DNA from: an uncultured Geobacteraceae bacterium
GTDB taxonomy: Bacteria; Desulfobacterota; Desulfuromonadia; Geobacterales; Pseudopelobacteraceae
Direction of reading: 5' to 3'
Assembly: GCA_903862245.1 (NCBI GenBank)
Contig: CAIOXL010000173.1
Location: 1 to 57,477 of the forward strand
Length of the DNA: 57,477 nt
Position 1 is the stretch's first letter; each line of letters begins with the position of its first letter. The notes beneath the pieces were generated by a model. It made no database searches and was not told the DNA's origin. It worked only from the letters and a program-made list of their open reading frames with translations. Shown piece after piece: positions 2,214 through 30,878 of the stretch. The position numbers were made by a program, and so were the translations under genes.

Positions 2214-3152
2214 CTAATCCCAAAATACAAGAGTGCCATGCTCGTCGCGGCCGGAGTCCAGATTCCAGTTACTGAACAATGGCACAGGATTCGAATCCCC
2301 GGAACAAATGGCCTGCTCCACCAAATTCCACACCGCCGCAACATTGTCAACGGCCTGGTCGAAGATATCGTCATAATCAAGGTGATACGGATTTTCTGTC
2401 GGCACTAATTGCTCGCTAATGTACTGCCGGCTGACTTTCTTGTATGCCGGATAGGTAAGGCCGATTTTTGCCGCAATAACATGGGCAAGGGGGAAGAGTT
2501 TCACCTCGCCGGCCTTGCAATCAACAGTTTTGGCAATAAATTCCCCATGCCATCTGGCACTGTCCGGAGGATGCGTAGCGAACAGCTCCGGGTGGACATC
2601 TTCAAGCATCCCTTCCCAGAGCGAGACGATGTCCCGATCCAGCCTGGTTCTGTCCTCAGAATCACCGCACCGTGCAACGGTCAGGGCAAAATCGTCCGAC
2701 TCCCCGATTTCCCCCAGATTCATCCTGCGGAATATATAACTGTCCTGGTTCATTTCACAGATGCGGTGATGACGCTGGTTTTCAGCATACACACCCACTT
2801 TGGCCTGTACTATGGGATGGATGGTAACATCGGCAGCAACATGCGCGCAGTATCCAAACAGCCATGCCAACTGTTTGTCACGTGCGATTCCTTTCCCCGC
2901 TCTGATGCGTATAATGCCACTTGAAATCATATCGCACGCCCGAGTGTAATGCATGGCGTCGGCCCAATTCGTGGCGGTGGCGTTTTCCCGTACAAGGTTG
3001 GGATAATCCGGGCTGACAGCACCCAACGCACAGTAAGGAAAGTATTCCCTCAGGACACGGCCAGATTCTGACGAGGGAGAAAATATTCTCTCTAGTCTGT
3101 CGTGTTGCATCAGTTCGTGTAGCAGTGTGATGTGAGCATAGGGGCCCGCCAT
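2214..3152 (-). CDS. zinc-dependent phospholipase C-like protein
   Basis: Residues MAGPYAHITLLHEL at the N-terminus and FGYCAHVAADVTIHPIVQ about a third of the way in are typical of the Zn-dependent phospholipase C family (pfam Zn_dep_PLPC), whose His/Asp residues bind zinc. The start at 3152 is preferred over 3176 because GGGAGG lies 4 nt upstream of it. The product is 312 residues with no signal peptide. In this family some members cleave phospholipids while many are uncharacterised, so phospholipase activity is inferred. Its place beside phosphatidylserine decarboxylase and an Lgt paralogue supports a lipid role. Confidence 0.75.
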   Translation of the reverse strand: MAGPYAHITLLHELMQHDRLERIFSPSSESGRVLREYFPYCALGAVSPDYPNLVRENATATNWADAMHYTRACDMISSGIIRIRAGKGIARDKQLAWLFGYCAHVAADVTIHPIVQAKVGVYAENQRHHRICEMNQDSYIFRRMNLGEIGESDDFALTVARCGDSEDRTRLDRDIVSLWEGMLEDVHPELFATHPPDSARWHGEFIAKTVDCKAGEVKLFPLAHVIAAKIGLTYPAYKKVSRQYISEQLVPTENPYHLDYDDIFDQAVDNVAAVWNLVEQAICSGDSNPVPLFSNWNLDSGRDEHGTLVFWD

Positions 3153-3184
3153 GTAACCTCCCTGAATTTTGTCCATTGTACGTA

Positions 3185-3709
3185 CTATATTTCATAACCC
3201 TTATCTTCTGGGCTGTTTTTCCCCGCAGCTATCATCAGTATGCCGTAGGCGATCAGGAGTATCGGAATGGCAGTTACCAGCCAAGCGGCAAGCGATTTGA
3301 CCGTTATCCAGCCAAGTATATTCAATGAGGTCAGGCCTGGACCGTGAAGCAATGCCGACAGCATCTGCTTCGGAATCGTCGGCCCCCAGGGGAACAGCCA
3401 CTCGCCAAGTTTAAAAAATGGAATCAGCAATACCAGTTGAACCGGATAGAGGAGATAGTTCACCGTCTGCAGTGCAACCTGGTTGAGGCCGAAAAGGTAC
3501 GCCAGCATGATGCCGATGAACGATGTACCCCACAGAAGCGGCATCGTTCCCAGAGCGATCCCGAGGCAAAGTGTCAGTACCAGTTTTTCGGGTGTCATCC
3601 CGCAGGTCATGACGGAGCGTAATCGTTGTGCTACAGGGTGGGCATTTCGCTGCCACACATTCTTCAACGTTCGTACGGCGGACAAACTAAATCCGGTCCT
3701 GATGCACAT
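3185..3709 (-). CDS. DUF2062 membrane protein
   Basis: A 174-residue protein with the DUF2062 pattern: a hydrophobic LVLTLCLGIALGTMPLLWG segment, then LNQVALQTVNYLLYPVQLVLL, and a C-terminal helix AWLVTAIPILLIAYGILMIA. Three or four membrane helices are likely. The function of DUF2062 is unknown, though in many bacteria it neighbours glycosyltransferase or lipid genes. The start used here overlaps the end of the Lgt paralogue by 23 nt; a later start at an internal Met is possible. It is followed 32 nt downstream by the phospholipase C-like start. Confidence 0.75.
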   Translation of the reverse strand: MCIRTGFSLSAVRTLKNVWQRNAHPVAQRLRSVMTCGMTPEKLVLTLCLGIALGTMPLLWGTSFIGIMLAYLFGLNQVALQTVNYLLYPVQLVLLIPFFKLGEWLFPWGPTIPKQMLSALLHGPGLTSLNILGWITVKSLAAWLVTAIPILLIAYGILMIAAGKNSPEDKGYEI

Positions 3710-4739
3710 GGAAACGGAGCGTGGCGCCAGTTACCGTACTGCGTCCCGTGTAGTAGAATAATACCAGCCAGATGATCTGTAGAAAGAGAATCAGCGCCGG
3801 ATTCCAGAGGCTTTTCAGGCCGACTGAAAGATCAGGCAGACCGGTCGGCTCATGGGCGAGGAAGAAAGCTGCCGCAATGGCATAAACAACGCCGACCATT
3901 CCCATGATCTGATACGCAGAAATGGAACCTGTGCCCCGGTAGTCGGCACGGAGGGTCTCGGAAAACGAACGCCACCCCTGGGTAGCGATGGTGGCGAGCA
4001 GAAATGCTCCCGTAAGATGCGATGACAGATACATTCCGGCCGCAATCAGGCCGCTGATGGTGTAGAAAACAGCGGTTACCGCTTGGATGGGAATCACCTC
4101 GGTCGCCTCCAACCCCCCGGCATACGCAATTTTTTTGGTACTGCCGAAGAACACGAAGCTGCGTCCCCTGAACAGTCGTTTCAGTAGAACCGAGCTGGTC
4201 GCAAGCGGTTTCCCGTAGCAGCAGCCAAAGCTGATGCAGGCCATCCTCCCCAATCCTTCACCAAAGGCGTAGGCAATGGCGATGGCTGCATACGCCGACA
4301 TGATCGGAATATGAAAAGCCAGCAGCTCGCCAGCGGTGCGGTTGATGGCCGTTATTACGAACGGGGTGATCAGGATGCCGACGAAAACAGCTCCGCCAAC
4401 CGTAAACGTGTGGGCCTTCTTCTCTACAATCCGGGCCACTAACCGCGATGCCGGCACGCAACAGCAGAGCATGGCCGCCGCCAGGATGGCCGTGCCAATA
4501 GGCGGGACACCAGCCGCTCCCATCAGCACCAGCAACACTGCCACTGCAACCAGATAGGCGTTGGCGGTAAGCAGACCATACCAGGTGAAGTTAATGCCAC
4601 TCCATTCCCTTTCCCCAGTGATGACTGACGGAACTGAAGCAAATATTTGCCACTTCTCGCCCGGCAGCTTTTTAAATCCCCACCAGAAATAGGCGGTCAG
4701 AAGTATGAGTGCGGAAATAATTGTTACGGTTTCAATCAT
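3687..4739 (-). CDS. prolipoprotein diacylglyceryl transferase paralogue
   Basis: A 350-residue multi-pass membrane protein resembling Lgt. The signature GEGLGRMACISFGCCYGKP near residues 161-178 corresponds to the family's GRxGCFxxGCCYG loop, and a later E-x-x-R followed by G-SISAYQ matches the C-terminal Lgt region. Lgt transfers diacylglycerol from phosphatidylglycerol to prelipoproteins. The canonical HPTQLYE loop is degenerate here (EVIPIQAVTAVFY), so this may be a specialised paralogue acting on another acceptor rather than the housekeeping enzyme. Its start and the stop of the decarboxylase share one base at 4739, indicating translational coupling. Confidence 0.75.
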   Translation of the reverse strand: MIETVTIISALILLTAYFWWGFKKLPGEKWQIFASVPSVITGEREWSGINFTWYGLLTANAYLVAVAVLLVLMGAAGVPPIGTAILAAAMLCCCVPASRLVARIVEKKAHTFTVGGAVFVGILITPFVITAINRTAGELLAFHIPIMSAYAAIAIAYAFGEGLGRMACISFGCCYGKPLATSSVLLKRLFRGRSFVFFGSTKKIAYAGGLEATEVIPIQAVTAVFYTISGLIAAGMYLSSHLTGAFLLATIATQGWRSFSETLRADYRGTGSISAYQIMGMVGVVYAIAAAFFLAHEPTGLPDLSVGLKSLWNPALILFLQIIWLVLFYYTGRSTVTGATLRFHVHQDRI

Positions 4740-5749
4740 TAGTTCCTCCCCGATACCGACGATTTACGTGCTGTGCCGAGCAGCGACCTCACCCGGATAT
4801 CCGTCTCAATAAGCGGCTTTTGAAACCCCTGGGTGAATCGGCTCGACACATTCGGTTTGTCCATGTTGTCCAGAATGTCCCCGGCAAAATCGATACGTCC
4901 CTCCTGAAAAACCAGTATGTCGGTGCTGCTCCCCGGGCGGTACAGGCTCTTGGGCTGTCCCTTCTGCAGGAACATCCCCTTTGTTATCGGCTGCGGTGAA
5001 TTATATGCCTCCGAGCTGTATGCCTGAACGATGTCGCCGATCATCAAGGCTACTACTTCGATCATTGCCACCAGTCCGACTCCGGTGCCATTTGGCACAT
5101 CCGTATCAATTATAGTAACGACCCGCTTGTTTTTTGAATACGGTGTCGCAACGGCAACAACCGCAGTCGGGTTACAGGAATGATAAACTCCGTCGATGGC
5201 GTAGGAGTCAACCACCTGACCGGACACCGGGGTGTGGTTGTAGTGGTACTTGTCGGGTGTCAGGCGAAATACCGCAAAATCTCCGCCGCAAAAGGCTCGG
5301 TGCCATACAGTGTTGCCAACACCGAACAGCTCTTCAAAAGAGAAAAACTTCTCTTTCAGGAAGAGCAGCGATGTCTCGTGGAAAGAGCCTACCAGCACCC
5401 GCGCATCGGCAGGGGATACGACCGCATCGGTATCAGCCGGCATGGGGCGGCATTCCCAGTAGCGGATTCTCCGCTCGAATACCTTTCGAAGCGTATCCAG
5501 TTGTGACAAGGGATCAAGGCACTCAGAAAGGTTGATGCTGCAGTTCTCCAGAAAGGTGCGATCAGATAGAACGGGTCGGTCATAATTGACCAGGCTCAGA
5601 ACATGGGACGACCAACTGCTGGTTAAAATCCTGAAGAGCTTCGTACTGCTTTCGCGCACGTCATGGTAGAGTAACCGAACCATGCGGTCTCCGATCAATT
5701 GCTCGGTGACAACTCTGCCGCTATACCGCTCGATATACTGATGCATCAT
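4739..5749 (-). CDS. psd: phosphatidylserine decarboxylase family protein
   Basis: Converts phosphatidylserine to phosphatidylethanolamine through a pyruvoyl group made by self-cleavage. Visible motifs in order are SPADARV (family SPADG, catalytic Asp), FRLTPDKYHYNHTPVSG (catalytic His region) and, near the C-terminus, YRPGSSTD, where cleavage would fall between Gly and Ser. The usual LGST is GSS here. The N-terminal 100 residues are longer than in short Psd enzymes. The start at 5749 is chosen because AAGGAG lies 8 nt upstream; it overlaps the preceding gene by 29 nt. Position in an operon with an Lgt paralogue and a phospholipase-like gene suggests a lipid-remodelling role. Confidence 0.85.
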   Translation of the reverse strand: MMHQYIERYSGRVVTEQLIGDRMVRLLYHDVRESSTKLFRILTSSWSSHVLSLVNYDRPVLSDRTFLENCSINLSECLDPLSQLDTLRKVFERRIRYWECRPMPADTDAVVSPADARVLVGSFHETSLLFLKEKFFSFEELFGVGNTVWHRAFCGGDFAVFRLTPDKYHYNHTPVSGQVVDSYAIDGVYHSCNPTAVVAVATPYSKNKRVVTIIDTDVPNGTGVGLVAMIEVVALMIGDIVQAYSSEAYNSPQPITKGMFLQKGQPKSLYRPGSSTDILVFQEGRIDFAGDILDNMDKPNVSSRFTQGFQKPLIETDIRVRSLLGTARKSSVSGRN

Positions 5750-8192
5750 CCCGGTCACTCCTTTGTCTGTCAATTGAATGCGCAGCCGCCGCCTCGTCGT
5801 GATACACCTTGAGCAGAATCAGGTTCATCAGGCGCTTCAGGGTGGGGATATCGGCCCGTTCATGCAGGATATCCTCTTTTGCGAGCTCGACAAACCGGCA
5901 CGCCTCCTGCCCCTGTAGAACCAACTGCAGGGCTTTCCGCAGTTTCTCATCAAGCGTTACGGGTTCACGGTCAAGAATGCTGCTCTCCTCGGCCAGAAAT
6001 CCGAGCGCCTCTTCAGTATGGCGGCGGCGCAGGGTGCCGCGATAGTAGCTCTCGGCACCAAGATTGAACTCGCTGGCATTGACGCGTAACGGCGATTTTG
6101 CGTTCACTTCAGAGAGTATACCGGAGGTGATTCGACCTGCCGCTGAATGGCATCCGGGCTCGTCAAGTCTCAGCTCCAGATCGCTCAGCATATCGTGCAG
6201 GCCCATCAGTTCGACCAGATCAGCCGCATCCTCCCGGATTACCCGCAGCAACGCCCGGCGGTATTCATGGATCTGAACGCGAAGATAGCCGGGATACCGA
6301 CGGCTGGGGCGAATGCCATCAGTTTTTTTGAGGATTTTCTCCAGAAAAGCGTTTTTACTGTTCCTGCTGACAAAAAAAGTGGGAATGCCGATGGCCGCGC
6401 CGAAAAAAATCTGCCGCCGTTCGCTTTCCACCGACGGATTGTCCGGAATGTGGACGTGAGTTGTGCCGAGTGCCATGTATTTATAGGCAAGCGAAGTTAT
6501 GAGGGTCTGCAGGTCGGCAGCCCGCCCCATGTCATCCCCAAAATTCTCAAAGATGCTGTAGTATCTTCCTTCAAAACCCGAAAAGCCCATTTTGGCAAAT
6601 TCACGCTGTTTGTAGAGCAGATATACCGACATCTGCTGATCGAATACGCCCATGTCGGCAAGATCGCTGCGGAGGCGGTCGCTGTTGCCGCTTTGGCCAT
6701 TCAGCCCAGGACTGTGCTCAGTGGAGAGCAGGCAGACCAAATAATCAAGCAGGCGGTAGTCGGGGACAAAATCCCCTTTCAGCCTGAACACAGAACTCAG
6801 CACCTTGTCCAGAGCCTGCGGCCCGAAAGGGGTCAACGGCTGGCCGAAAATGGAAAGATCGGCCTTCTTTTTCCACCGGCGCCAGATCATTCTCAGATGG
6901 GTAAAGTCCAGTTCATGGGGCAGAAAGCCAAGCGCCTTTTCTGGATGGAAATCGCTGAAAGCCAGCCGATAGGGAGCCGCAGTATAGGTACCAACGAAGA
7001 GCGGCAGGAAATGTTCACTGATCTTGATGGCCAGATCTCCGTAAAGCTTTTCGTGGACTGCGTTAAAACCGGAGTTACCGTCAGCCATGGCTCGTGTCAG
7101 TCTCCGGCTGCCTATACTGATATGGGTACCGTTATTAGCCAGGCTGACATTTGAGAGGTTGGGAAGTACCACCAGGTTTGTCTGGATTATGCCGGCGTCG
7201 CGCAGTTTGGCGACCGCATTCAGTTGACTGCGGGACAATACCTGATGGCAGAGTTGCATGTAGCGGAACTTGTCCTCCCCCTTATCCCATCCGGAAAGAC
7301 AGGGGCTCATGAACAGATCCCGGTAAAAACTGTCCGAGACATGATCGTTCAGTTCTTTCTGCCGAACCGGAGGGTGTGGGGCGAAATAGACCATGGCCTG
7401 CTGGCCGCGTTCATCGAGGCCGAAGGCCTGATTGGCGTACATCACCAATAATTGCGTCATGAGAAAGCGTATGGCGGTTTCTTTGGCGATGCCTCTACCC
7501 ATGCCGTTATCCGGTGTAAGGGAGACGACATTGAACGAAAACGTTTCCGGCGAGGTATTGTCGTTCAGGTAATGTTCCATCAGACGGATGCCGGTATGAC
7601 GAATAATGTCCGGCAGTATGTGTTGAGAGCCAATAAGGTCGGCCAGAGCGAGTTTAATCAGGTAACTGATCGGAAGGCGCAGCATATCTTCGCCCGAAGT
7701 ATCACGAAACATGAAGCGGGCTGAATCGGAGCGCGTACCTGCTCCCGGGTTCTGCTTGTCCGCCAGAAGATCTCTTTCCAATACATCCAGAGCGAACCGG
7801 GAAAGGTTTCGGCGGGGGAAGCGCACCCAGCTGTTTTCCCAGACACGTGAAGGGTTATCCGCCAGAAACCTTCCAAGATCAGCCACGGCCTTGCGTGGTG
7901 TTTCTCCTGCCGCAGCCCGTTTCATCATGTTGGCAAAGAAATTGGACTGTTCTATTAACAACGGCAGGTCAACATCTTCCCTTGCACCGCTTACAACTGC
8001 CTGGAGCTCACTTTCCGAGCCGGCGGTCACATCATTGACCGAAAATGGCAGCGTAGCCGCCAGTTCTTCCCGGGAAGCAAATGAAACGCCCATCTGTGAG
8101 AAAACCGTTCGAATATTGAGCGGCGCGGACTCTTCTTTTGCTTTGTGTTCTCCAGCCATGCTGTAGTACATACCGTTAGGGGGATTGTTCAT
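5721..8192 (-). CDS. large conserved-looking protein of unknown function
   Basis: I do not recognise this roughly 820-residue protein. It looks soluble (no signal peptide or clear membrane helix) and rich in long helical stretches. Distinctive segments are LTPDNGMGRGIAKETA, YFAPHPPVRQKELND, VVLPNLSNVSLANNG and FENFGDDMGRAADLQT. The start is uncertain: ATGs at 8192, 8171 and 8159 are in frame and none has a strong ribosome site. The frame stays open further upstream to 8357, into the preceding gene. It overlaps phosphatidylserine decarboxylase by 29 nt at its 3' end, so a job in the same lipid pathway is likely. A Pho-box-like array lies just upstream (8202-8246). No catalytic motif could be assigned. 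Confidence 0.8.
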   Translation of the reverse strand: MNNPPNGMYYSMAGEHKAKEESAPLNIRTVFSQMGVSFASREELAATLPFSVNDVTAGSESELQAVVSGAREDVDLPLLIEQSNFFANMMKRAAAGETPRKAVADLGRFLADNPSRVWENSWVRFPRRNLSRFALDVLERDLLADKQNPGAGTRSDSARFMFRDTSGEDMLRLPISYLIKLALADLIGSQHILPDIIRHTGIRLMEHYLNDNTSPETFSFNVVSLTPDNGMGRGIAKETAIRFLMTQLLVMYANQAFGLDERGQQAMVYFAPHPPVRQKELNDHVSDSFYRDLFMSPCLSGWDKGEDKFRYMQLCHQVLSRSQLNAVAKLRDAGIIQTNLVVLPNLSNVSLANNGTHISIGSRRLTRAMADGNSGFNAVHEKLYGDLAIKISEHFLPLFVGTYTAAPYRLAFSDFHPEKALGFLPHELDFTHLRMIWRRWKKKADLSIFGQPLTPFGPQALDKVLSSVFRLKGDFVPDYRLLDYLVCLLSTEHSPGLNGQSGNSDRLRSDLADMGVFDQQMSVYLLYKQREFAKMGFSGFEGRYYSIFENFGDDMGRAADLQTLITSLAYKYMALGTTHVHIPDNPSVESERRQIFFGAAIGIPTFFVSRNSKNAFLEKILKKTDGIRPSRRYPGYLRVQIHEYRRALLRVIREDAADLVELMGLHDMLSDLELRLDEPGCHSAAGRITSGILSEVNAKSPLRVNASEFNLGAESYYRGTLRRRHTEEALGFLAEESSILDREPVTLDEKLRKALQLVLQGQEACRFVELAKEDILHERADIPTLKRLMNLILLKVYHDEAAAAHSIDRQRSDRDDASVYRAV

Positions 8193-8201
8193 ATGGCGCA
8201 T

Positions 8202-8246
8202 ATCATATAGTAAAATTGTGACGGTTACGTTCGTGCCATGTAAAGA
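8202..8246 (-). promoter_or_regulatory. weaker candidate Pho-box promoter for the large unknown gene
   Basis: Reading the minus strand, TCTTTAC (8246-8240), CACGAAC (8235-8229) and CCGTCAC (8224-8218) recur every 11 nt, and TATGAT (8207-8202) follows the last by exactly 10 nt. The middle copy is poor. The spacing matches four better arrays in this window. It sits in the short gap after the secreted protein gene, so it would be an internal promoter of the operon. Confidence 0.35.
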
Positions 8247-8251
8247 TTGTG

Positions 8252-8998
8252 TTACATTTCCCTGCTCACCGTTTTCGCCTGAACTGAATAGGAATTTTTC
8301 TCTCCCCTGCTGTCTTGGCGAAACATGATTATCGCCGAACCATCCCACGCTATCCAACGTCTGGCTTTTTTGTTCTGGTCTGAAAAATCAATAATACGGC
8401 ACGGATATTCCTTGCCTCCGATGGCATAAACCGTGTTTTGCACGAGATGATAGTCCCGCTTGACTACAGCCATTTTTTCAACATCGAGAATTCTCAAGGT
8501 AATTTGTGTTTTATCTAAAAAATCCAGGCGCGCTTCGGGGCACTCCATGGTGGTATAGTCATAGCTGTTGCGTGGAACGAGGATGGAGTGTGCAGTCCCC
8601 TGTTCACGCACGTCAAACCGGAATGATAAATTATCAAGTCGACCCTCGACATCAATCCGGTCACCGTTTTCCCGGCCTTTACGGGAGTAACTGGTCAGGA
8701 CCCCTTTTTGAAGCATCCCCTTCTCCATTGAATCAAGGGAATACCCCATCCACAAAAATGATGCCTTGACCGCAGTTCTGGTTTCAAAATGAACTTTCGC
8801 TTCACCGCCTTCTTCATTGACGCGCTGCGTAGTGGTGACGTCGCCAATCGTAAACCCCTTGGTGGTCACCGTGTAGTACGTCACAGTTTTTAGCGAATTG
8901 CCTGCCGATTGCGCGAAAAACGGGATAAAGAATAATGCCAGGAAAAAAGACCACGTTAGGACAGTACGTAATAGCGTCACAGATCTTCCGTTGTGCAT
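8252..8998 (-). CDS. secreted DUF3108/DUF6134-like protein
   Basis: A 248-residue protein starting MHNGRSVTLLRTVLTWSFF with a typical signal peptide and likely cleavage after FAQSA. The mature part is beta-rich, with repeated patterns such as VTYYTVTTKGFTIGDVTT and KVHFETRTAVKASFLW and a late CRIIDFSDQNKKARRWIAWDG. This resembles DUF3108/DUF6134-type periplasmic proteins that measure a lipid-like or polymer substrate, but no activity is known. The start overlaps the end of the psiE-like gene by 22 nt, so it is the second gene of the operon. A longer in-frame start exists at 9079 but would hide the signal peptide. Confidence 0.7.
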   Translation of the reverse strand: MHNGRSVTLLRTVLTWSFFLALFFIPFFAQSAGNSLKTVTYYTVTTKGFTIGDVTTTQRVNEEGGEAKVHFETRTAVKASFLWMGYSLDSMEKGMLQKGVLTSYSRKGRENGDRIDVEGRLDNLSFRFDVREQGTAHSILVPRNSYDYTTMECPEARLDFLDKTQITLRILDVEKMAVVKRDYHLVQNTVYAIGGKEYPCRIIDFSDQNKKARRWIAWDGSAIIMFRQDSRGEKNSYSVQAKTVSREM

Positions 8999-9414
8999 CG
9001 TGGAGAAAACCTGACCGTAATAATCCTGATGCAGGCAAGAGAAAGCACCAGTAATAAGGTCATGGCAACTTCCTGCCATTCCATCTCTTTATACCAAAAT
9101 GCCATTACCTCTGTTAACACGGTAACAATAACCGTGTCGATGATGTACGTTACCTTGACCCTGCCTTCAGTAAAATAGGCCAGTGCTGTACGTAACACCT
9201 CAACAATGGCAAGCACCGTCAATATATCCACCAGTATGGTTTTGAAGGCGGAATGAGAATCCTGATGAAAAATGAGTCTCAAATCGTAAAAGGTGTAGCC
9301 AATTCCTGCCACTATCGTTGTCAGGATAGCAACGATTAACAATGACAGCACAACACGCGCTGACATCTCGAAGAAACGGCTTACGTTCAGGTCTATAACA
9401 TCTTCCCTCCACAT
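8977..9414 (-). CDS. PsiE-like phosphate-starvation-inducible membrane protein
   Basis: A 145-residue protein with four predicted membrane helices: roughly residues 14-40, 58-80, 88-108 and 116-135. The central ILVDILTVLAIVEVLRTALAYFTEGRVKVTYIIDTV pattern, divided by the charged EGRVKV loop, is typical of the PsiE family. PsiE was named for induction by phosphate starvation in E. coli; its activity is unknown. It is the first gene of the nine-gene minus-strand run. A Pho-box-like promoter lies 31-75 nt upstream, which agrees with the family name, and GGGGAGGAA precedes the ATG at 9414. Confidence 0.82.
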   Translation of the reverse strand: MWREDVIDLNVSRFFEMSARVVLSLLIVAILTTIVAGIGYTFYDLRLIFHQDSHSAFKTILVDILTVLAIVEVLRTALAYFTEGRVKVTYIIDTVIVTVLTEVMAFWYKEMEWQEVAMTLLLVLSLACIRIITVRFSPRCTTEDL

Positions 9415-9444: not shown

Positions 9445-9489
9445 AGTCTAGCAGGGTCAGATTACGATCAGGTTGTGACATGGTTACGA
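9445..9489 (-). promoter_or_regulatory. candidate PhoB-type promoter of the psiE-lipid operon
   Basis: On the minus strand, TCGTAAC (9489-9483), TCACAAC (9478-9472) and TCGTAAT (9467-9461) form three 7-bp direct repeats separated by 4 nt. The hexamer TAGACT (9450-9445) begins exactly 10 nt after the last repeat. PhoB boxes in characterised bacteria are 7-bp direct repeats with 4-bp spacers that replace the -35 and end about 10 bp before the -10. Transcription would begin near 9438, leaving a short leader with a good ribosome site. Confidence 0.65.
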
Positions 9490-9539
9490 TTGTGGAAATT
9501 ATTTCAGTGCTTTTGTGGGCGCAAAAATATTCTACAAAA

Positions 9540-9584
9540 CAATTACACAACCGAAACATCGCTGTAACATTGGCATGATATACA
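9540..9584 (+). promoter_or_regulatory. candidate PhoB-type promoter of the PHP-GT4/ppk1 operon
   Basis: CAATTAC (9540-9546), CCGAAAC (9551-9557) and CTGTAAC (9562-9568) are 7-bp repeats with 4-nt spacers. TATACA (9579-9584) follows the last by exactly 10 nt. Transcription would start around 9591, immediately before the ATG at 9593, so the message may be nearly leaderless. The array is divergent from the psiE array, separated by about 50 nt. Confidence 0.6.
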
Positions 9585-9592
9585 CTCGGAGC

Positions 9593-12043
9593 ATGAACCC
9601 ATACAAAGCTGATCTACATGTTCACTCGAGCCACTCCAACAAACCAACCTACTGGGCCATGCGCAAATTCAGTGTCCCGGAGAGTTACACATCCCCCAAA
9701 TATCTCTACCGGGTAGCGCGTGAACGGGGCATGGATTTCGTTACCATCACCGACCACAACGCCATCAGCGGAGCTCTGGAAATAGCACATCTTGAGAACA
9801 CCTTCATCAGCTCCGAAATTACGGCCCATTTCCCGGAGAATGGCTGCAAAGTTCATGTTGTGGTGTTGCATATCTCCGAAATCCAGTTCCAGTCGATAAT
9901 GATCCTACGCAAAAATATCTATGAACTGGTGGCGTATCTTCATTCGGAAAAAATAGTACATTTCCTGGCCCATCCTCTCTATGCCCAGAATGAAAAACTG
10001 AACTGCGAGATTATTGAACGGTCGCTGCTGCTTTTTACCACCTTTGAAATCAAGAACGGTTGCCGGGCACACCGCTTCAACGGATTCACCAAGCGTTTGG
10101 TTTCCTCCTTGAACGAAGCGGTCATAGAGCGTCTTGCCAATAAATATGATCTGCAACCCTCCGGTGAAATCCCATGGATTAAGGGTGTAGTCGGGGGATC
10201 TGATGACCACGGCGGCCTGTTCATAGCACGGGCCCATACCACCGTCTACGATACGCCGACTATCGAAGGATTTATTGACGGCATCAGAAACGGCGACAGT
10301 TGGGCCGATGGTGAAGATGGCGGACCACTGACTATGGCGCACAGCCTGTACGGCATTGGTCATAGTTTCTATCGGGAGCGCTTGGGGCAGCGCCGGCGCG
10401 GTGCTACTCCCTTCGTCAGCGCCCTTCTGGATCGTTTTTTCAACATTGGCGAAGACAAGGGCTCTTTCATCGACACGATTCGTCTATTTATTCTAAAGAA
10501 TCTGCCCGCTTCACGCAGTCATACAGGAAAACGTTTTGAAGAAATCCTCGATTCAGAAGCTCGGCTGTTGCTGAGTGACAACCAGTTTATGACCGGTATC
10601 AGTAATGCTGACAGTAATCGTAAAATATTTGCCGTAACGAGCCGATTGGCAAACCGCCTGATTTTCCACTATACGCACCGCCTTATGACACTGCCGCTCA
10701 ACGCCGGTTTTTTTGACTATCTCAATACGGCGGGCACAATAGGGCTGGTCCACGCCCTTATTTCCCCCTACTACCTGGCTTTTCATCACCAGCACAAGGG
10801 GAAGGAACTGATTCGGGATATCACAAGGGCATTACCTGAACTGCACTACAAGGAAGTCCCTGAAAAGATAGCTCTATTCACCGACACACTGGATGAGATT
10901 AACGGCGTTGCCATAACTATCAAACGCCTGATCAGTACCGCCCGGAACCGTGGGGTTGAGTTGACGGTCATCACGGCGGGAGATGCCAGTGACGTGGTGG
11001 TTGACGGTGTTAAGAAGTTTCCGTCTGTTGGCGACTTTGTGCTGCCGGAATATCCAGAACTGAAACTCAACTTCCCACCGATTCTGGATGTAATGGACTA
11101 TATCGAGCGAGAAGGGTTTACCCGGATTCATGTCAGCACTCCCGGGACGGTGGGGCTGCTTGGGCTTTTGATAGCCCGTATAATGAACATTCCGGTAGCC
11201 GGCACCTATCATACCGACATTCCCCAATATGTACGCAGTCTGACTAACGATGAGTTTCTTGAAAAGGCTGCCTGGAGCTATATGATCTGGTTTTACAGCC
11301 AGATGGAAGAGGTTATGGTGCCGTCAGTAGGCACACGCGAACAGCTGGCGGCACGCGGTTTGCCGCCTGAACGAATGAAACCTCTGCCCCGCTGGGTGGA
11401 TACGGAGACGTACTCGCCTGAAATGCGCAACCCGAGCTTCTGGAAAAGTCGTGGTATCGGAATGGGCAGAACCGTACTGCTCTACGTGGGGCGCGTCTCG
11501 CGGGAAAAAGGCTTGGCAATGCTGGTGGAAGCCTTCAGAGAGCTGGTAGATAATGGGGCCTCAATTGCTCTTGCGGTCATCGGTGACGGACCGTACCGGG
11601 AGGAAATGGAAACAACGCTTTCGGGATATCCAACGTTTTTTACCGGTTATCTGGCGGGAGAACAACTCCAGATGGGTTACGCCTCTGCCGACCTTTTCGT
11701 CTTTCCCAGCGCCACTGATACCTTCGGCAATGTGGTTCTCGAAGCACAGGCTTCAGGTTTACCGGTGATCGTCTCTGATGAAGGTGGCCCACGCGAACTG
11801 ATGATAGATGGCGAAACCGGGGCGGTTTTCCGTGCCGGCAGTAAAAGCGGCCTAGTTGCAGCTATCAGGCTGATAGTCTCCGATCCGGAGCAAATGGCTC
11901 GAATGAGTATGAATGCCCGGAACTTTACACTGACGAATGCCCCTGACAGCAGCCAAACTTACAGCACTATTTTGCACCTTGACGTGCAACGGCAAGTAGA
12001 CACGTGCGCTGCCGGAACTGAGTTCGCAGATGTTGGAGCATAA
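9593..12043 (+). CDS. PHP-domain/GT4 glycosyltransferase fusion
   Basis: An 816-residue fusion. Residues 1-270 are a PHP metal-dependent phosphoesterase domain (DLHVHSSHS at 6-14, TITDHNA, a late SDDHGG). Residues from about 420 form a GT4 glycosyltransferase, beginning FTDTLDEINGVA and containing YHTDIP, YVGRVSREKG and SATDTFGNVVLEA with the EAxASGLPV nucleotide-sugar loop. The opening pattern is like lipid glycosyltransferases such as SqdX and MgtA, so a glycolipid product is a reasonable inference. The ATG at 9593 is preferred: PHP homology starts at once, GGAG precedes it, and the 9575 and 9515 starts lie inside the predicted promoter. It is 3 nt from ppk1. Confidence 0.85.
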   Translation: MNPYKADLHVHSSHSNKPTYWAMRKFSVPESYTSPKYLYRVARERGMDFVTITDHNAISGALEIAHLENTFISSEITAHFPENGCKVHVVVLHISEIQFQSIMILRKNIYELVAYLHSEKIVHFLAHPLYAQNEKLNCEIIERSLLLFTTFEIKNGCRAHRFNGFTKRLVSSLNEAVIERLANKYDLQPSGEIPWIKGVVGGSDDHGGLFIARAHTTVYDTPTIEGFIDGIRNGDSWADGEDGGPLTMAHSLYGIGHSFYRERLGQRRRGATPFVSALLDRFFNIGEDKGSFIDTIRLFILKNLPASRSHTGKRFEEILDSEARLLLSDNQFMTGISNADSNRKIFAVTSRLANRLIFHYTHRLMTLPLNAGFFDYLNTAGTIGLVHALISPYYLAFHHQHKGKELIRDITRALPELHYKEVPEKIALFTDTLDEINGVAITIKRLISTARNRGVELTVITAGDASDVVVDGVKKFPSVGDFVLPEYPELKLNFPPILDVMDYIEREGFTRIHVSTPGTVGLLGLLIARIMNIPVAGTYHTDIPQYVRSLTNDEFLEKAAWSYMIWFYSQMEEVMVPSVGTREQLAARGLPPERMKPLPRWVDTETYSPEMRNPSFWKSRGIGMGRTVLLYVGRVSREKGLAMLVEAFRELVDNGASIALAVIGDGPYREEMETTLSGYPTFFTGYLAGEQLQMGYASADLFVFPSATDTFGNVVLEAQASGLPVIVSDEGGPRELMIDGETGAVFRAGSKSGLVAAIRLIVSDPEQMARMSMNARNFTLTNAPDSSQTYSTILHLDVQRQVDTCAAGTEFADVGA

Positions 12044-12046
12044 ATA

Positions 12047-14224
12047 ATGTCAAATACGATACCACCCAAACCACGAAGATCCAGGAAACCTGCCGGCGAA
12101 TTTAATCTTTCGGACCCTTGCTGGTACCTAAACCGCGAGTTAACCTGGTTGGAATTCAATAGCCGTGTGCTGCATGAGGCTGAAGATGTACGTACTCCGT
12201 TACTGGAACGCCTCAAATTCATCGCCATAGTCAGTGCCAACCTTGACGAGTTTTTCATGAAGCGCATCGGCGGACTCAAACAACAGGTCGCCGCAGGTAT
12301 GCGAGAAGTCAGCATTGATGGACTTACGCCACTTCAGCAGATACACGAGTGCTACAAATACATCCGGATTTTGGAAAGCAGAAAATTTGATTTATTGCAG
12401 CAGGTTCTTGAGCTGCTCAATGAACAGGGTATACGGATTTGCAGAATAAAAGATCTCACTGCAAGCGAGAGGAAAAAACTTCGTAAGCATTTTGCAACTA
12501 ACATATATCCTCTGCTGACACCCCAGTCCATCGACCCTGCCCACCCGTTCCCATTTATATCAAACCTGTCACTTAATCTGCTGCTTACCCTGAACAGCGC
12601 TTCAGGACCTGATATGCAGTTGGCTCGCGTCAAGGTACCGGTCGGTGCAAGTACTTCCAGATTCATTCCTGTTCCCGGCAGATCTGATTGTTTCGTACGC
12701 CTCGAAGAACTGCTTTGCTGCAATCTGGATATGCTTTTCCCCGGTATGGAGGTTGTACGCTGCGACCTGTTTCGTGTTACCCGCAACGCCAACACGGAGA
12801 CAGACGAGGAAGAAGCGGACGATCTGGTTGAGATGATTGAAACAGAGCTAAAGGAGCGACGTTTTGCGCCAATCGTACGGCTGCAGGTACTTGAAGGAAT
12901 GCCTGTGTTTCAACGCGGCAGACTGGCTGCGGAACTTGATATCAACGAAAATGACGATGTATTCTTTGTACCGATGTTGTTGGCCATGCGCGACCTGTTT
13001 GAGCTTGTAAAACTTGATTATCCGCACCTGCATGACCCGCCACACTACCCGATTGTGAATCCGCAATTGGACTCTCAGCGAAATATTTTTCATATTATAC
13101 GCGACGCGGGTTCAATCCTGCTTCAGCACCCCTATGAATCATTTTCATCGTCAGTAGAGCGCTTTCTACGTGATGCAGCCTCAGATCCCAAGGTGCATGG
13201 CATCAAGATGACGCTCTATCGCACTTCCAGCCAGAGCCGCATCATTGAAGCCCTGCTGCTGGCTGCCCAAAACGGCAAACAGGTGGCGGTGGTTGTGGAG
13301 CTGAAGGCGCGTTTCGATGAAGCCACAAATATTCGTTTGGCTGAACTTATGGAACAGGCGGGGGTTCATGTCACATACGGTGTGGTTGGACTCAAAACCC
13401 ATTGCAAGGTGATTATGATCGTTCGCCGGGATTTTAACGCTCTACGCTGCTATGTCCATATCGGCACAGGGAATTACCACGCTGACACAGCACGTCTTTA
13501 CACCGATGTCGGTCTGTTAAGCTGCAGTGAGGCCCTCGGACATGACGTCACGGAGCTGTTCAACTACCTGACAACCGGTTTCAAACCGCGCAGGAAATAT
13601 AGTCGTTTGTTGACCGCCCCTCGGTTCCTCAAGCAGGCACTGTTAGCCAAGATTGAGCGCGAAACCGTACTGCACCGTGAAAATGGCTGTGGTTTGATAC
13701 AATTCAAGATAAATGCGCTGGAAGATGGAGACATTGTCAAGGCGCTTTATCTGGCATCTCAAGCTGGAGTCCAGATCGACCTGATTGTGCGCGATACCTG
13801 CCGTATTCGGCCTGGGATTGCCGGTCTGTCTGAGACAATTCGTGTTATCAGTATTGTTGGGCGGTTTCTGGAACATTCCCGCATTTACTATTTCAGAAAC
13901 AATGGATCGGAAGAATATTTTATCTCTTCAGCCGACGCCATGAAGCGCAATCTTGAAGCTCGGGTGGAGGTGCTTTGCCCGGTGGAGACTCCTGCACTTG
14001 CCCGTGAACTTCGTACTATCCTTGATATTCATTTGAGCGATACCCGCTCTGCGTGGGATATGCAGTCGGATGGGAGTTATGTCCAGCGAATTTCTACCGA
14101 CCCTGACATTGTTGACTGCGGTAGCCATAGCCAATTGATTGAGTATGCCGATAAGCGCGTTGTGCAACACCGGAAGAGAATGAAGAAAAAAAACTCAAAA
14201 AAAGAGATCGATATTCACAACTAA
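12047..14224 (+). CDS. ppk1: polyphosphate kinase 1
   Basis: Reversibly polymerises the gamma-phosphate of ATP into polyphosphate through a phosphohistidine. All four Ppk1 domains are present in 725 residues (usual about 690-730): N-terminal YLNRELTWLEFNSRVLHEA, the NLDEFFMKRIGGL head region, TLYRTSSQSRIIEAL, the catalytic HCKVIMIVRR, and HIGTGNYHADTARLYTD. The start has GGAG 8 nt upstream. It follows the PHP-GT4 gene by 3 nt and so would share its Pho-type promoter; ppk under Pho control is known in several bacteria. A Lys-rich tail (KKKNSKKE) ends the protein. Confidence 0.97.
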   Translation: MSNTIPPKPRRSRKPAGEFNLSDPCWYLNRELTWLEFNSRVLHEAEDVRTPLLERLKFIAIVSANLDEFFMKRIGGLKQQVAAGMREVSIDGLTPLQQIHECYKYIRILESRKFDLLQQVLELLNEQGIRICRIKDLTASERKKLRKHFATNIYPLLTPQSIDPAHPFPFISNLSLNLLLTLNSASGPDMQLARVKVPVGASTSRFIPVPGRSDCFVRLEELLCCNLDMLFPGMEVVRCDLFRVTRNANTETDEEEADDLVEMIETELKERRFAPIVRLQVLEGMPVFQRGRLAAELDINENDDVFFVPMLLAMRDLFELVKLDYPHLHDPPHYPIVNPQLDSQRNIFHIIRDAGSILLQHPYESFSSSVERFLRDAASDPKVHGIKMTLYRTSSQSRIIEALLLAAQNGKQVAVVVELKARFDEATNIRLAELMEQAGVHVTYGVVGLKTHCKVIMIVRRDFNALRCYVHIGTGNYHADTARLYTDVGLLSCSEALGHDVTELFNYLTTGFKPRRKYSRLLTAPRFLKQALLAKIERETVLHRENGCGLIQFKINALEDGDIVKALYLASQAGVQIDLIVRDTCRIRPGIAGLSETIRVISIVGRFLEHSRIYYFRNNGSEEYFISSADAMKRNLEARVEVLCPVETPALARELRTILDIHLSDTRSAWDMQSDGSYVQRISTDPDIVDCGSHSQLIEYADKRVVQHRKRMKKKNSKKEIDIHN

Positions 14225-27991: not shown

Positions 27992-28042
27992 TCGTATCTC
28001 CTTACGGTCATTTCCGTGAACTCTCCCCAACGTAGCACATGA

Positions 28043-28095
28043 ATGTTACATACATATTTCGGCAGGGTAAAATTTGCGTAAATGTTGTGTTACAG
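28043..28095 (-). promoter_or_regulatory. phnCp: candidate PhoB-type promoter of the phn operon
   Basis: On the minus strand, CTGTAAC (28095-28089), CATTTAC (28084-28078) and ATTTTAC (28073-28067) recur every 11 nt, and TATGTA (28056-28051) begins exactly 10 nt after the last. The first copy differs from the E. coli Pho-box half CTGTCAT at two positions. The array overlaps the stop of the GH3 gene. The downstream half, TTTACCC then 7 nt then ATATGTATGTAACAT, is repeated at 30837-30865. Confidence 0.7.
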
Positions 28096-29718
28096 AGGGA
28101 GTGGATCAGGATTAGGGATGTTATGCAAGTTTATGGTCCGAGGTGTAATTGTATGAAATTGCTGAAGACTCATTATCATTGATGAATCCGGGGTCGGATC
28201 AATATGCGGTATTTTACTCTGCCCGCCCAGTTTTCCCCGTTCTGCCTGCGACCATTGGTATATTCCGTTTTCCGGAACAAACATTACATCCGGCGCGTTG
28301 ATGCGCCCCTGACTGCGGAAGGTGGCATAGTCGGCGTTCCGGCTGCAGAGATTTGTGTCCAATATGGCACTGGCGGTAGTAGCGTCAATGTCATTCTGAA
28401 CAGCCAGAACCCACCGGTGCCGCCGTGCCTGTGTATCGGCACCGACCATAAACTCCCGGACATTTACACCGCTGGTTTTATTAAGATGGGCAACCGCCTG
28501 TTCCACCTCTTCCTGCGTGACCTTCTCTTCCAGTTTATCCAGAAAACGGTCTCTGCCGGTAAACTCGATGTGATGGGGAGAAGTGGAGGTGAAGCGTATC
28601 GTGTCGCCAATGTGGTAGCGCCACAACCCTGAACAGGTGCTGAGGATAACGGCATAGCGCTGACCCACTTCGACCCGCTCGAGAGGTATCGCGTGTGCGT
28701 AAGGTGCGGGCTTGCCTTGTTCATCCAAGTCTTCAAAACGGACAAATTCAAAAAATACCCCATAGTACGGAGTCAAACGCATCTGGGTTTCGCCGAACTG
28801 CTGAAACGCCATGAAGGCCTCGGATGAGGGGAGCAGTTCCAGCAGATTGGGCGTGCCGCCATCGAACAGGCTCTCCAGTTCCTTGCGATAGGGTAGTATG
28901 CTGGTGCCGCCGTGGATGATCAGCTCTAAATTCGGCAGTAATCGGGAAAGTGGCTTGCCGCCGATCTCCATGCAGCGCTTTAGCAGCAGGATGATCCAGG
29001 GTGGCACGCCGGAAATGACGCGGATTTGGTTGTCTCGCACCAACAACTCGGCCATGGCCTGCAGTTTTTCTTCCCATGGCAGGGCCGATATTTTTGCACT
29101 AGGCTCTACGAACGCCGACAGGTACCAAGGGCGAAAGCGAAGTGTCAGTGCACTCATATCGCCGGACCAGACCCCGCGCTTGACTTTGGTTAAACGGGTT
29201 GAACCGGACATATAGAGAACTTTGCCTTGTAGTATCTGCGATTCCGGATTGGCGGTCAGATAGCAGGCCATCATGTCCAGGGCGGCCCGCCGGTTTTCCG
29301 CAAACATCTGGGCTGAGAACGGAATGAATTTGGTCGGAGCGGTCGTTCCGGAGGTCTCGCAGAACATGGTAATGCTGTCGGGCCAGGTAATGTTGTCCAG
29401 ATCAGGAACCGACCCCCCCATAGAAGAGGTTGGCTGATTGAGATAAAAATAATCGGTCATGAAGTTCTGATACGAACGGATCGGCACACGGTTTTGGTAG
29501 TAACGGTACGCAGCATCAAAGGATACACCACGGATACGGGCAAAGTTGTTGTCCCTGCCGAACTGTGTCGTGGCACCGGATTCAAGCAACTCACGAAATA
29601 TCCGTTGTTGCGCTGCCAACGGGTCCTGGCGGTTAAATGTATCAGCCCGCTTTACGGCTTGAGAGTGCAGCAATCGTTGCAGCACCCCGACATTCTGCGC
29701 TCGTGCCAGCATACTCAT
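28090..29718 (-). CDS. GH3-family acyl-acid amido synthetase-like protein
   Basis: A 542-residue member of the GH3 branch of the ANL adenylating superfamily. The ATP-binding loop is CETSGTTAPTKFIPFS near 115-130, the second motif region is TPYYGVFFEFVRFED, and YHIGDTIRF corresponds to the third. In plants GH3 enzymes join jasmonate or auxin to amino acids; bacterial members are mostly uncharacterised. It starts directly at the end of the alpha/beta hydrolase gene and is preceded by a shared Pho-type promoter, which would put it under phosphate control. The substrate cannot be predicted from this sequence. Confidence 0.85.
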   Translation of the reverse strand: MSMLARAQNVGVLQRLLHSQAVKRADTFNRQDPLAAQQRIFRELLESGATTQFGRDNNFARIRGVSFDAAYRYYQNRVPIRSYQNFMTDYFYLNQPTSSMGGSVPDLDNITWPDSITMFCETSGTTAPTKFIPFSAQMFAENRRAALDMMACYLTANPESQILQGKVLYMSGSTRLTKVKRGVWSGDMSALTLRFRPWYLSAFVEPSAKISALPWEEKLQAMAELLVRDNQIRVISGVPPWIILLLKRCMEIGGKPLSRLLPNLELIIHGGTSILPYRKELESLFDGGTPNLLELLPSSEAFMAFQQFGETQMRLTPYYGVFFEFVRFEDLDEQGKPAPYAHAIPLERVEVGQRYAVILSTCSGLWRYHIGDTIRFTSTSPHHIEFTGRDRFLDKLEEKVTQEEVEQAVAHLNKTSGVNVREFMVGADTQARRHRWVLAVQNDIDATTASAILDTNLCSRNADYATFRSQGRINAPDVMFVPENGIYQWSQAERGKLGGQSKIPHIDPTPDSSMIMSLQQFHTITPRTINLHNIPNPDPLPL

Positions 29719-30795
29719 CTAAACCGCCAGCTTCAGCCGAGGATACAGCAGCCTGTTATACCAGCGATCCAGCAGCGCATTGTATGCTTCGTGATGGAAA
29801 ATGAGGGATGCGTGGGCGACTCCATCACCCTCGATGTCTGATTTTACGGTCTTTACCAGGCAGGTCGGAAATATCCTGCTGTACAGAGACGGTTCGCTGA
29901 ACAGCTGTAACGTAGGCGACGATGGGACCAGAATGTCCGATTCATTTTCAGCCAGAAGTGCCAATACCGGGCCGGAGAAGAGTGTTCTGGAGAATACGGG
30001 GAAGCGGAAGTCCCGTAGTGCCACAACCCGCTCAAAACCACCCCGGGCAGTCGTGTATTCGATGACATCATTGATTTTTTTTCTGATAGCAAGGTGACGG
30101 ACACTGAGGGTGCGGTTCTCCGCTCCTGAATTGAAAAGAGCCTGGAAACAGCGGCGTGAGCGTTCTATATGTTTTGATATATCCGATTCGTTTTCCGGAT
30201 CGGCAGCGACAATTTTTTTGAGGTTACTTTCTAAAATCCGTACGCCGTCCCGTTTTTGCTCCGGCGGTCTGATCAGGTCGTCAGTTGAGATGACAGGACT
30301 GACCAGTATGAGCCCCCGCACGTTTTCATGAACCTGCTCATCAGCGTGCAGCAGATAGTCGGAGAGAAGGCCGCAGCCAAAGCTGATGCCCATGATCAAA
30401 GGTTTTTGCCCTTTACGCGCCAGCGATTCGATCAGGTCAGTAAGCTGGGCTGTAAACATCTTTCGGCAAAATCTGTTGCGAGAATAGTTAACGTAGTAGA
30501 TGGAGCCATGCTGGCGCAGAAGTTTACGCTGGAACTCCACGGTCTCGGTCGCGTCCGGTACAAACCCTCCCAGTACTATGGTCGGTACGTTGCCGGCACC
30601 TTTTTCCCGGAAGATTTCACACCGCGAGCGGTGCGCATCCGGACTTTGCTCAATTTCTTCAATTTCCCGGCGCCGAGTTTTCGGAGCGAAGCGTTTGATG
30701 GAGATCCCACGCATAAAACCTGCGGCTGCGGTGATCGCAGTTACTACATGGCCGCCGTCCTTCACTACGCGAAGCTTCTTCGACTTTTCGCTCAT
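29719..30795 (-). CDS. alpha/beta-hydrolase-like protein partnered with GH3
   Basis: A 358-residue protein. PTIVLGGFVPDATETVEF (oxyanion strand) near 65, LIMGISFGCGLLSDYLL with a G-I-S-F-G nucleophile elbow near 135-140, LLAENESDILVPSS (acid) and GVAHASLIFH (late His) form a plausible hydrolase triad. The N-terminal basic stretch (KSKKLRVVKDGG) may be a loose membrane or acceptor-binding segment. It is the first gene of a two-gene operon with GH3 and lies 43 nt downstream of the expected start from a Pho-type promoter. It may prepare or reverse the GH3 product; this is inference. Confidence 0.7.
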   Translation of the reverse strand: MSEKSKKLRVVKDGGHVVTAITAAAGFMRGISIKRFAPKTRRREIEEIEQSPDAHRSRCEIFREKGAGNVPTIVLGGFVPDATETVEFQRKLLRQHGSIYYVNYSRNRFCRKMFTAQLTDLIESLARKGQKPLIMGISFGCGLLSDYLLHADEQVHENVRGLILVSPVISTDDLIRPPEQKRDGVRILESNLKKIVAADPENESDISKHIERSRRCFQALFNSGAENRTLSVRHLAIRKKINDVIEYTTARGGFERVVALRDFRFPVFSRTLFSGPVLALLAENESDILVPSSPTLQLFSEPSLYSRIFPTCLVKTVKSDIEGDGVAHASLIFHHEAYNALLDRWYNRLLYPRLKLAV

Positions 30796-30836
30796 ATTAC
30801 CTCCCGGGTTTGTTTGGGAGGCATCATAGCATCGTC

Positions 30837-30878
30837 ATGTTACATACATATTGCAATCGGGTAAATGTTGTGAAAATT
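30837..30878 (-). promoter_or_regulatory. candidate PhoB-type promoter of the hydrolase-GH3 operon
   Basis: On the minus strand, AATTTTC (30878-30872) and CATTTAC (30867-30861) are spaced by 4 nt, with TATGTA (30850-30845) exactly 10 nt after the second. A third, more distant copy is poor. The segment from TTTACCC through ATATGTATGTAACAT is repeated in the phn promoter with the same 7-nt gap, so the two promoters look like copies of one module. Confidence 0.6.

Follow-up and report, generated by a model that had tools for sequence, protein, structure and literature searches.

Two divergent predicted Pho-box promoters between psiE and a metallohydrolase-glycosyltransferase gene in an uncultured Geobacter relative

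Introduction

What controls the two sets of genes that run away from each other on either side of a 178-nt intergenic region in an uncultured relative of Geobacter? The stretch of DNA analyzed here (herein the window; 57,477 nucleotides) is contig C173 of a 2.92-Mb genome assembled in 204 contigs. On its minus strand, psiE is followed by genes for a 275-aa protein, an 823-aa protein (herein p878), a phosphatidylserine decarboxylase (PSD), a paralogue of prolipoprotein diacylglyceryl transferase (Lgt), a DUF2062 protein, a phospholipase C-like protein, an M28 peptidase, and an alpha/beta hydrolase. On the plus strand lie the gene for a PHP metallohydrolase domain fused to a family-4 glycosyltransferase (herein PHP-GT4) and ppk1. 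A preliminary description read the 140 bp at 9445 through 9584 as divergent Pho-box arrays that join the lipid operon to the glycosyltransferase/ppk1 operon in one response to phosphate starvation.

PhoB promoters keep a spacing of about 10 nt from the Pho-box repeats to the -10 element. In Escherichia coli, passages of two reports describe a Pho box of 7-bp repeats with a 4-bp spacer, with psiE and Phn uptake among the targets (PMC3333781, PMC4415409). The organism studied here encodes the PhoB/PhoR pair that such promoters need: contig C112 carries phoB, phoR, pstS, two pst permease genes, pstB, and phoU together, as judged by Pfam matches and gene order, and a second phoB lies on C160.

Results

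Two back-to-back arrays with fixed spacing

The features of the locus are collected in Table 1. The open reading frame of the 275-aa protein overlaps psiE at its start, and the true start is therefore probably further downstream. A pattern scan of positions 1 through 15100 found 10 terminator-like places, compared with 15.9 in shuffled sequences; those listed on the minus strand to the left of 9414 all fall inside genes.

Table 1. Coordinates of predicted promoter elements and genes in the window
Feature	Position	Strand	Basis or remark
Zinc-dependent phospholipase C-like protein	2214..3176	-	PF00882, E 1.5e-21
DUF2062 protein	3185..3709	-	PF09835
Lgt (prolipoprotein diacylglyceryl transferase) paralogue	3687..4739	-	PF01790, 32.5 bits
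Phosphatidylserine decarboxylase (PSD) paralogue	4739..5773	-	PF02666, E 9.1e-37
p878, 823-aa conserved protein, ATG at 8192	5721..8192	-	Previously unannotated; in 57/141 genomes of the order, E<=1e-20
Additional Pho-box array, four units, plus -10 TATGAT (8207-8202), directly before p878	8202..8256	-	Matrix rank 4; R1 on window only, E 0.029
275-aa conserved protein, family unassigned	8252..9079	-	Without Pfam or NCBIfam family; relatives near the module in many loci
psiE, phosphate-starvation-inducible E family	8977..9414	-	PF06146, E 1.3e-14
Extended -10 TGC TAGACT, predicted psiE promoter	9445..9453	-	Sequence; TA in 7/7, TG in 6/7 aligned sequences
psiE-side Pho-box array, three good units and a weak fourth	9460..9500	-	Outside matrix, shuffles, conservation in phase
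Four-unit Pho-box array before the PHP-GT4 gene, 11-nt period	9529..9570	+	Matrix rank 1, genome scan, conserved distance to ATG
Extended -10 TGA TATACA, 8 nt before the ATG at 9593	9576..9584	+	Sequence
PHP metallohydrolase domain fused to family-4 glycosyltransferase (PHP-GT4), 816 aa	9593..12043	+	PF00534, PF13439
ppk1, polyphosphate kinase, 3 nt after the PHP-GT4 gene	12047..14224	+	Pfam
Pho-box array before the phosphonate uptake/C-P lyase operon	28031..28082	-	R1 genome-wide, E 8.2e-6
Pho-box array before the hydrolase-like and GH3-like genes	30824..30877	-	Genome-wide, R1 E 0.0036 and R2 E 2.3e-7

The geometry given in the preliminary description holds on both strands. Three 7-mers stand at an exact 11-nt period on each, the two sets lie back to back, and the last 7-mer ends exactly 10 nt before a hexamer in the -10 place, with no -35 element. 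The plus-strand units are CAATTAC (9540-9546), CCGAAAC (9551-9557), and CTGTAAC (9562-9568), followed by TATACA at 9579-9584; those of the minus strand are TCGTAAC (9483-9489), TCACAAC (9472-9478), and TCGTAAT (9461-9467), followed by TAGACT at 9450-9445. A further upstream unit had been missed; it is clear on the plus strand (9529-9535) and weak at best on the minus strand (9494-9500). A consensus scan of the intergenic region returned a single weak sigma-70 pair (9475-9502), which uses neither array's -10.

Similarity among the repeats is by itself weak evidence. When all triplets of units with TA at the -10 place are compared, 14 of 2,010 on the plus strand and 2 of 2,009 on the minus strand score as high (the arrays themselves included), so that by this measure the arrays are only modestly beyond chance. 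They were therefore tested against promoters from outside the window.

A matrix built from phoB and pstS promoters recognizes both arrays

The training pool consisted of upstream regions taken from 30 phoB and 30 pstS loci in the same family. Four loci from the window's genome or near-identical to it (L106, L107, L136, and L137), one whose phoB region is degenerate (L117), and one in which no site lies near (L126) were left out, and the final matrix comprises 26 phoB and 28 pstS sites, all from other genomes. These promoters have a common layout of four hexamers at an 11-nt period (TCTACA or TTAACC; TTTATC or TTTTCC; GCAACA or GTAACA; GTAACA), then 6 nt, TGN, and the -10 hexamer; the T, G, T, and A of TGNTA are invariant at the same spacing in the 54 sites.

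The preliminary description mentions five arrays in the window but gives no positions for them. Scored with array and -10 together and with both promoter types, the five best places on the two strands of the window are 9529+, 30824-, 28032-, 8206-, and 9448-. The plus array reaches 47.0; the arrays whose last units start at 30843-, 28049-, 8222-, and 9465- (the psiE side) reach 35.5, 35.0, 26.9, and 6.6, respectively. Whichever of the six matrix variants is used, the plus array comes first in the window. The psiE-side array is fifth in this one and takes ranks 6, 7, 7, 9, and 36 in the five others, which use the array alone or the phoB or pstS sites alone. Chance as the origin of both arrays was rejected by shuffling: among 20,000 shuffles of the intergenic region none attained 47.0 and eight attained 6.6, and no position on either strand of ten shuffled copies of the whole window reached the lower score. 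The organism's own phoB and pst promoters bear the motif seen here, with a strong match on the plus side and a weak one on the psiE side.

Genome-wide scans find the motif at phosphate genes

Two models were used to scan the genome. R1 is a sequence-only model of the 54 phoB and pstS sites, and 150 of its 628 first-look candidates were scored. A Pho-box reading would be refuted if arrays of equal quality stood at random places in the genome, and among the scored candidates it withstood this check: R1 gave seven matches at E<=10, and the six at E<0.01 all belong to phoB, pstS, or window promoters. Three are outside the window, at phoB (C112:1769), the second phoB (C160:3884), and pstS (C112:4313), and three inside it, at 9529-9582 (E 2.2e-7), 28031-28082, and 30825-30872 (E values in Table 1). 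The psiE-side array went unreported by R1, both in the genome scan at E<=10 and on the window alone with filters off at E 10; the latter run did report 8214-8256.

R2 was trained on sites from relatives (12 phoB, 14 pstS, 16 glycosyltransferase-side, 5 p878-side, and 6 psiE-side), with the window sequence excluded. Its eleven genome matches (150 of 439 candidates scored) include ten at E<=0.0011, and half of these ten are in the window: 9529+, 30824-, 8206-, 9448-, and 28032-. R2 provides no independent test of the glycosyltransferase-, p878-, and psiE-side promoters, as it was trained with the relatives' copies, and every training site, though from another genome, comes from the same family as the window.

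Exact patterns were tried and set aside. A loose two-unit pattern had 60+75 matches in the genome versus 61+62 for its reversed control, counts that fail to separate signal from noise, and a stricter one had a single match per strand for pattern and control alike, which is uninformative. Three of the best loose-pattern matches and both strict ones are at phoB, pstS, phn, and window sites.

Could the sites belong to another OmpR-family regulator that binds 11-nt direct repeats, and not to PhoB? Such repeats are common to the OmpR family, and the genome has seven Trans_reg_C matches; we nevertheless judge this very unlikely, given that the same motif precedes phoB, the second phoB, pstS, and the phn operon, and that R1 at E<0.01 reports no further promoter outside the window among the 150 of 628 candidates scored. 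All 76 genomes of the family also encode a response regulator that matches PhoB; the match reaches E<=1e-60 in 69, and in the remaining seven the best match may be another regulator. The Pho-box reading of the arrays is supported by the outside matrix, by the whole-genome scans, and by conservation among relatives, and we consider it highly probable that the 140 bp comprise two divergent promoters predicted to be activated by PhoB. This confidence is for the pair and not for a purpose in lipid metabolism.

The predicted promoter before PHP-GT4 lies at a fixed distance from the start codon in most regions

A query with the PHP-GT4 protein retrieved 48 loci titled Geobacteraceae, Desulfuromonadales, and similar; one (L058) is identical to the window, two (L067 and L099) share a single genome with each other, and three are without the gene start, so that the window and 45 loci gave 46 upstream regions. 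Named isolates among the loci are Geobacter argillaceus (L077), Trichlorobacter thiogenes (L078), Oryzomonas japonica (L089), and Geomesophilobacter sediminis (L092); of these four, L078 alone has p878 in its locus. The best site ends 21 to 23 nt before the PHP-GT4 ATG in 37 of them, some of these sites scoring poorly (L086, L092, and L104, for example), and lies elsewhere in the other 9; the fixed distance is thus not universal. R1 gives 29 matches at E<0.01 in 843 kb; 20 of these, from as many of the 45 loci, are the site before PHP-GT4, and 3 more stand before phoB or pstS. Random segments of the same loci were dropped as a yardstick, since Pho-rich loci hold real sites; measured against this background, which contained such sites, 11 of the 46 sites before PHP-GT4 attained p<0.001, and on the divergent strand none of the 46 did.

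The end of the -10 is only 6 to 8 nt from the ATG in 37 of the 46 regions. In these 37, a five-base Shine-Dalgarno core never occurs from 18 to 5 nt before the ATG, compared with 30 of 30 pstS and 24 of 30 phoB regions that have one. On these two grounds the PHP-GT4 mRNA is predicted to be leaderless, probably starting at the ATG or within a base or two of it. The window has a GGAG one base before the ATG, outside the stretch searched and, by the usual Shine-Dalgarno spacing, presumably too close to act. The start codon can hardly be further downstream, because the first metal residues are residues 7 through 11 of the protein; residues that we take to be the metal-binding ones of a PHP-type site are invariant in 30 PHP-GT4 sequences.

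Relatives retain the phase of the predicted psiE-side promoter

In the window and six relatives that have psiE (L058 left out as identical), all seven aligned sequences keep the psiE-side units in phase with some substitutions, and the -10 is conserved to the extent given in Table 1. Matrix scores in the six relatives are 8.1, 12.7, 2.0, -2.1, 20.6, and 10.0. Mean pairwise identity is 0.83 in the glycosyltransferase-side array and 0.72 in the psiE-side array, compared with 0.31 between the arrays and 0.42 in the psiE leader.

An alternative is that only the rightward array functions, the leftward repeats being decayed or fortuitous, with psiE expressed otherwise and the lipid genes dependent on the array at 8206-8256. 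The gap between 47.0 and 6.6, the failure of R1 to detect the psiE side, and a psiE-side score below zero in one of six relatives would all fit, but decayed or chance repeats would hardly stay in phase in the window and all six relatives, retain an identity of 0.72 against 0.31 between the arrays, or hold a score that so few shuffles (8 of 20,000) attain, and we regard this alternative as improbable. We retain two divergent promoters, the psiE-side one predicted to be much weaker than that on the glycosyltransferase side.

A separate array precedes p878 and the lipid genes

The third array, directly before p878, changes how the lipid genes would be controlled. Covering 8206-8256, it has a genome-wide E of 3.6e-6 with R2, which was trained with relatives of the same site. 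A similar site is found within about 200 nt upstream of p878 in 7 of 15 p878 loci, the window's copy L058 included; the other 8 have no credible same-strand site before p878, and in one of these (L091) the gene start is off the contig, so that its row was left out as an artefact. PSD and the Lgt paralogue are probably driven mainly by the predicted 8206-8256 promoter and not by the psiE-side array. The claim that divergent Pho boxes join the lipid operon to the glycosyltransferase and ppk1 is supported as to the Pho boxes and refined as to the lipid genes, for which 8206-8256 is the likelier direct control of PSD and the Lgt paralogue. An array-like site on the opposite strand upstream of p878 was seen, alike, in three loci (L076 ~3943, L078 ~4085, and L081 ~6420, all minus).

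p878 belongs to no Pfam or NCBIfam family and has no PDB sequence match of note; its lone Pfam match was discarded as chance-level (E 0.26, in 1 of 11 members). Of 141 genomes of the order, 57 encode p878 (E<=1e-20) and 62 encode PHP-GT4 (E<=1e-60); the two occur together in 42 (odds ratio 9, p 5e-9, kinship uncorrected). PHP-GT4 is repeatedly linked to Lgt and PSD paralogues, in several lineages, and in several relatives (L105, L077, L082, L062, L104, and others) pho or pst genes are in the same locus as the module. In L083 and L090, PHP-GT4 is followed in the same direction by p878 and PSD, and the site before PHP-GT4 is the sole one in the locus to score above 8. Of the 48 loci, some of which end at a contig end, 13 have a ppk1 match that begins no more than about 310 nt after PHP-GT4; the idea that ppk1 is tied to the module everywhere was therefore rejected.

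Because the genome holds another Lgt (C36), PSD (C159), and ppk1 (C16), the window copies look like dedicated paralogues. The Lgt at C36 matches with 262 bits and the window copy with 33, and the latter may not be a true Lgt; by eye it seems to be without the histidine of what we take to be the usual HGG motif.

Gene content suggests a role in lipid replacement or recycling

The PHP domain of PHP-GT4 (residues 4 through 236) matches the NCBIfam CehA/McbA metallohydrolase family at E 1.4e-9, below the family cut-off. Matches to the GT4 domain come from many unrelated glycosyltransferase families, and those listed all fall below their curated cut-offs; the best NCBIfam match acts on phosphatidylglycerol (120 bits, cut-off 480), and the best solved structure is alpha-maltose-1-phosphate synthase, with the lipid mannosyltransferase PimA also among the matches. 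From gene content alone, the most likely purpose of the promoter pair is the replacement or recycling of phospholipids.

The divergent genes may instead be Pho-regulated without lipid remodelling, the glycosyltransferase making a piece of surface polysaccharide and the lipid genes recycling phospholipid for its phosphate. The breadth and low scores of the family matches, the structural match to a maltose-1-phosphate synthase, and the phospholipase C-like, M28 peptidase, and alpha/beta hydrolase genes that come next in the same direction are compatible with this. We think it rather unlikely, since the Lgt and PSD linkage recurs in several lineages, the best NCBIfam match, for all its distance from the cut-off, is to an enzyme of phosphatidylglycerol, and PimA is among the structure matches.

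In the reading that we favour, phosphorylated PhoB would bind head-to-tail on the 11-nt direct repeats, which take the place of a -35 element, and would recruit sigma-70 RNA polymerase to the extended -10 (unit, 6 nt, TGN, hexamer) when phosphate is low. The rightward promoter would drive co-transcription of PHP-GT4 and ppk1 into an mRNA that is probably leaderless. The weaker leftward one would drive psiE and, with the 8202-8256 promoter, p878, PSD, the Lgt paralogue, and the DUF2062 and phospholipase C-like genes. Phospholipids would be replaced or recycled with a glycosylated, phosphorus-poor lipid, and a second ppk1 would handle polyphosphate.

Comparison with known phosphate responses

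As in E. coli, the arrays have 11-nt direct repeats instead of a -35 element, and psiE, pst, and phosphonate genes are among the targets. They differ from the E. coli CTGTCAT in that the units are GTAACA- or TTTACC-like, usually number four, and lead to an extended -10, and the predicted targets here include PHP-GT4 and p878. Passages on DVU1083, a PhoB of a related group in Desulfovibrio vulgaris, describe GT(n)AC-type repeats and pst targets, a likeness to the organism studied here; the repeat given there is 6 bp long with a 4-bp spacer, and the targets listed differ from those predicted here (PMC3333781).

Remodelling by Agt and PlcP in Agrobacterium, marine bacteria, and Desulfovibrio alaskensis is among the closest known parallels for the glycosyltransferase, which here has a predicted Pho box upstream. 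According to passages of one report, the group 1 glycosyltransferase Dde_3613 of D. alaskensis is required for growth at low phosphate (PMC5193443). In the window, by contrast, the GT4 domain is fused to a PHP metallohydrolase domain and stands beside PSD and Lgt paralogues and p878, and no PlcP-type metallophosphoesterase was detected beside it at E<=0.001 in 20 window proteins. PHP-GT4 might by itself do both the PlcP and the Agt jobs in a Pho-controlled lipid module of the Geobacterales expressed from a leaderless PhoB-driven transcript: its PHP domain would remove the phospholipid head group and its GT4 domain would glycosylate the diacylglycerol, with p878 (as a new enzyme family) and the dedicated PSD and Lgt paralogues as helpers. 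We offer this as a doubtful proposal.

The type of switch is known, and the conserved lipid/glycosyltransferase module is largely uncharacterised; titles, abstract openings, and passages of the open-licence literature yielded neither a Pho box in Geobacter nor the gene set of PHP-GT4, p878, PSD, and Lgt. The analysis provides a cross-tested Pho-box model for the family. It places a large share of the predicted sites of the genome on one 57-kb contig, namely 3 of 6 with R1 (150 of 628 candidates scored) and 5 of 10 with R2 (150 of 439 scored; trained partly on relatives of the window promoters). It also suggests that the phosphate response includes a patchily conserved module (PHP-GT4, p878, and the PSD and Lgt paralogues), and makes the question of lipid remodelling directly testable in cultured relatives.

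Other predicted Pho-box sites in the genome

Downstream of the array at 28031-28082 are PhnC, PhnD, PhnG, PhnH, PhnI, and PhnJ, the phosphonate operon being a classical Pho target. Directly before this operon, 28090-30877 holds the GH3-like gene and the hydrolase-like one, the latter without a Pfam family and with a GxSxG-like motif by eye.

Elsewhere, a Pho-box-like match at C112 1694-1739 (minus; R2 E 0.001, R1 E 0.99) points away from phoB; no ORF of at least 100 aa is just downstream on its strand, and it possibly serves a small gene or RNA. An R2 match at C17 72-117 (E 5.4e-4) precedes an ORF of 167 aa that belongs to no Pfam family; genes for MgtE and NRAMP transporters are nearby. The second phoB (C160 3142-3861, minus) is 77% identical to the phoB of C112, has a strong Pho-box array of its own at 3883-3936, and is followed by a gene that resembles a histidine kinase by eye; the two PhoB proteins may share a regulon.
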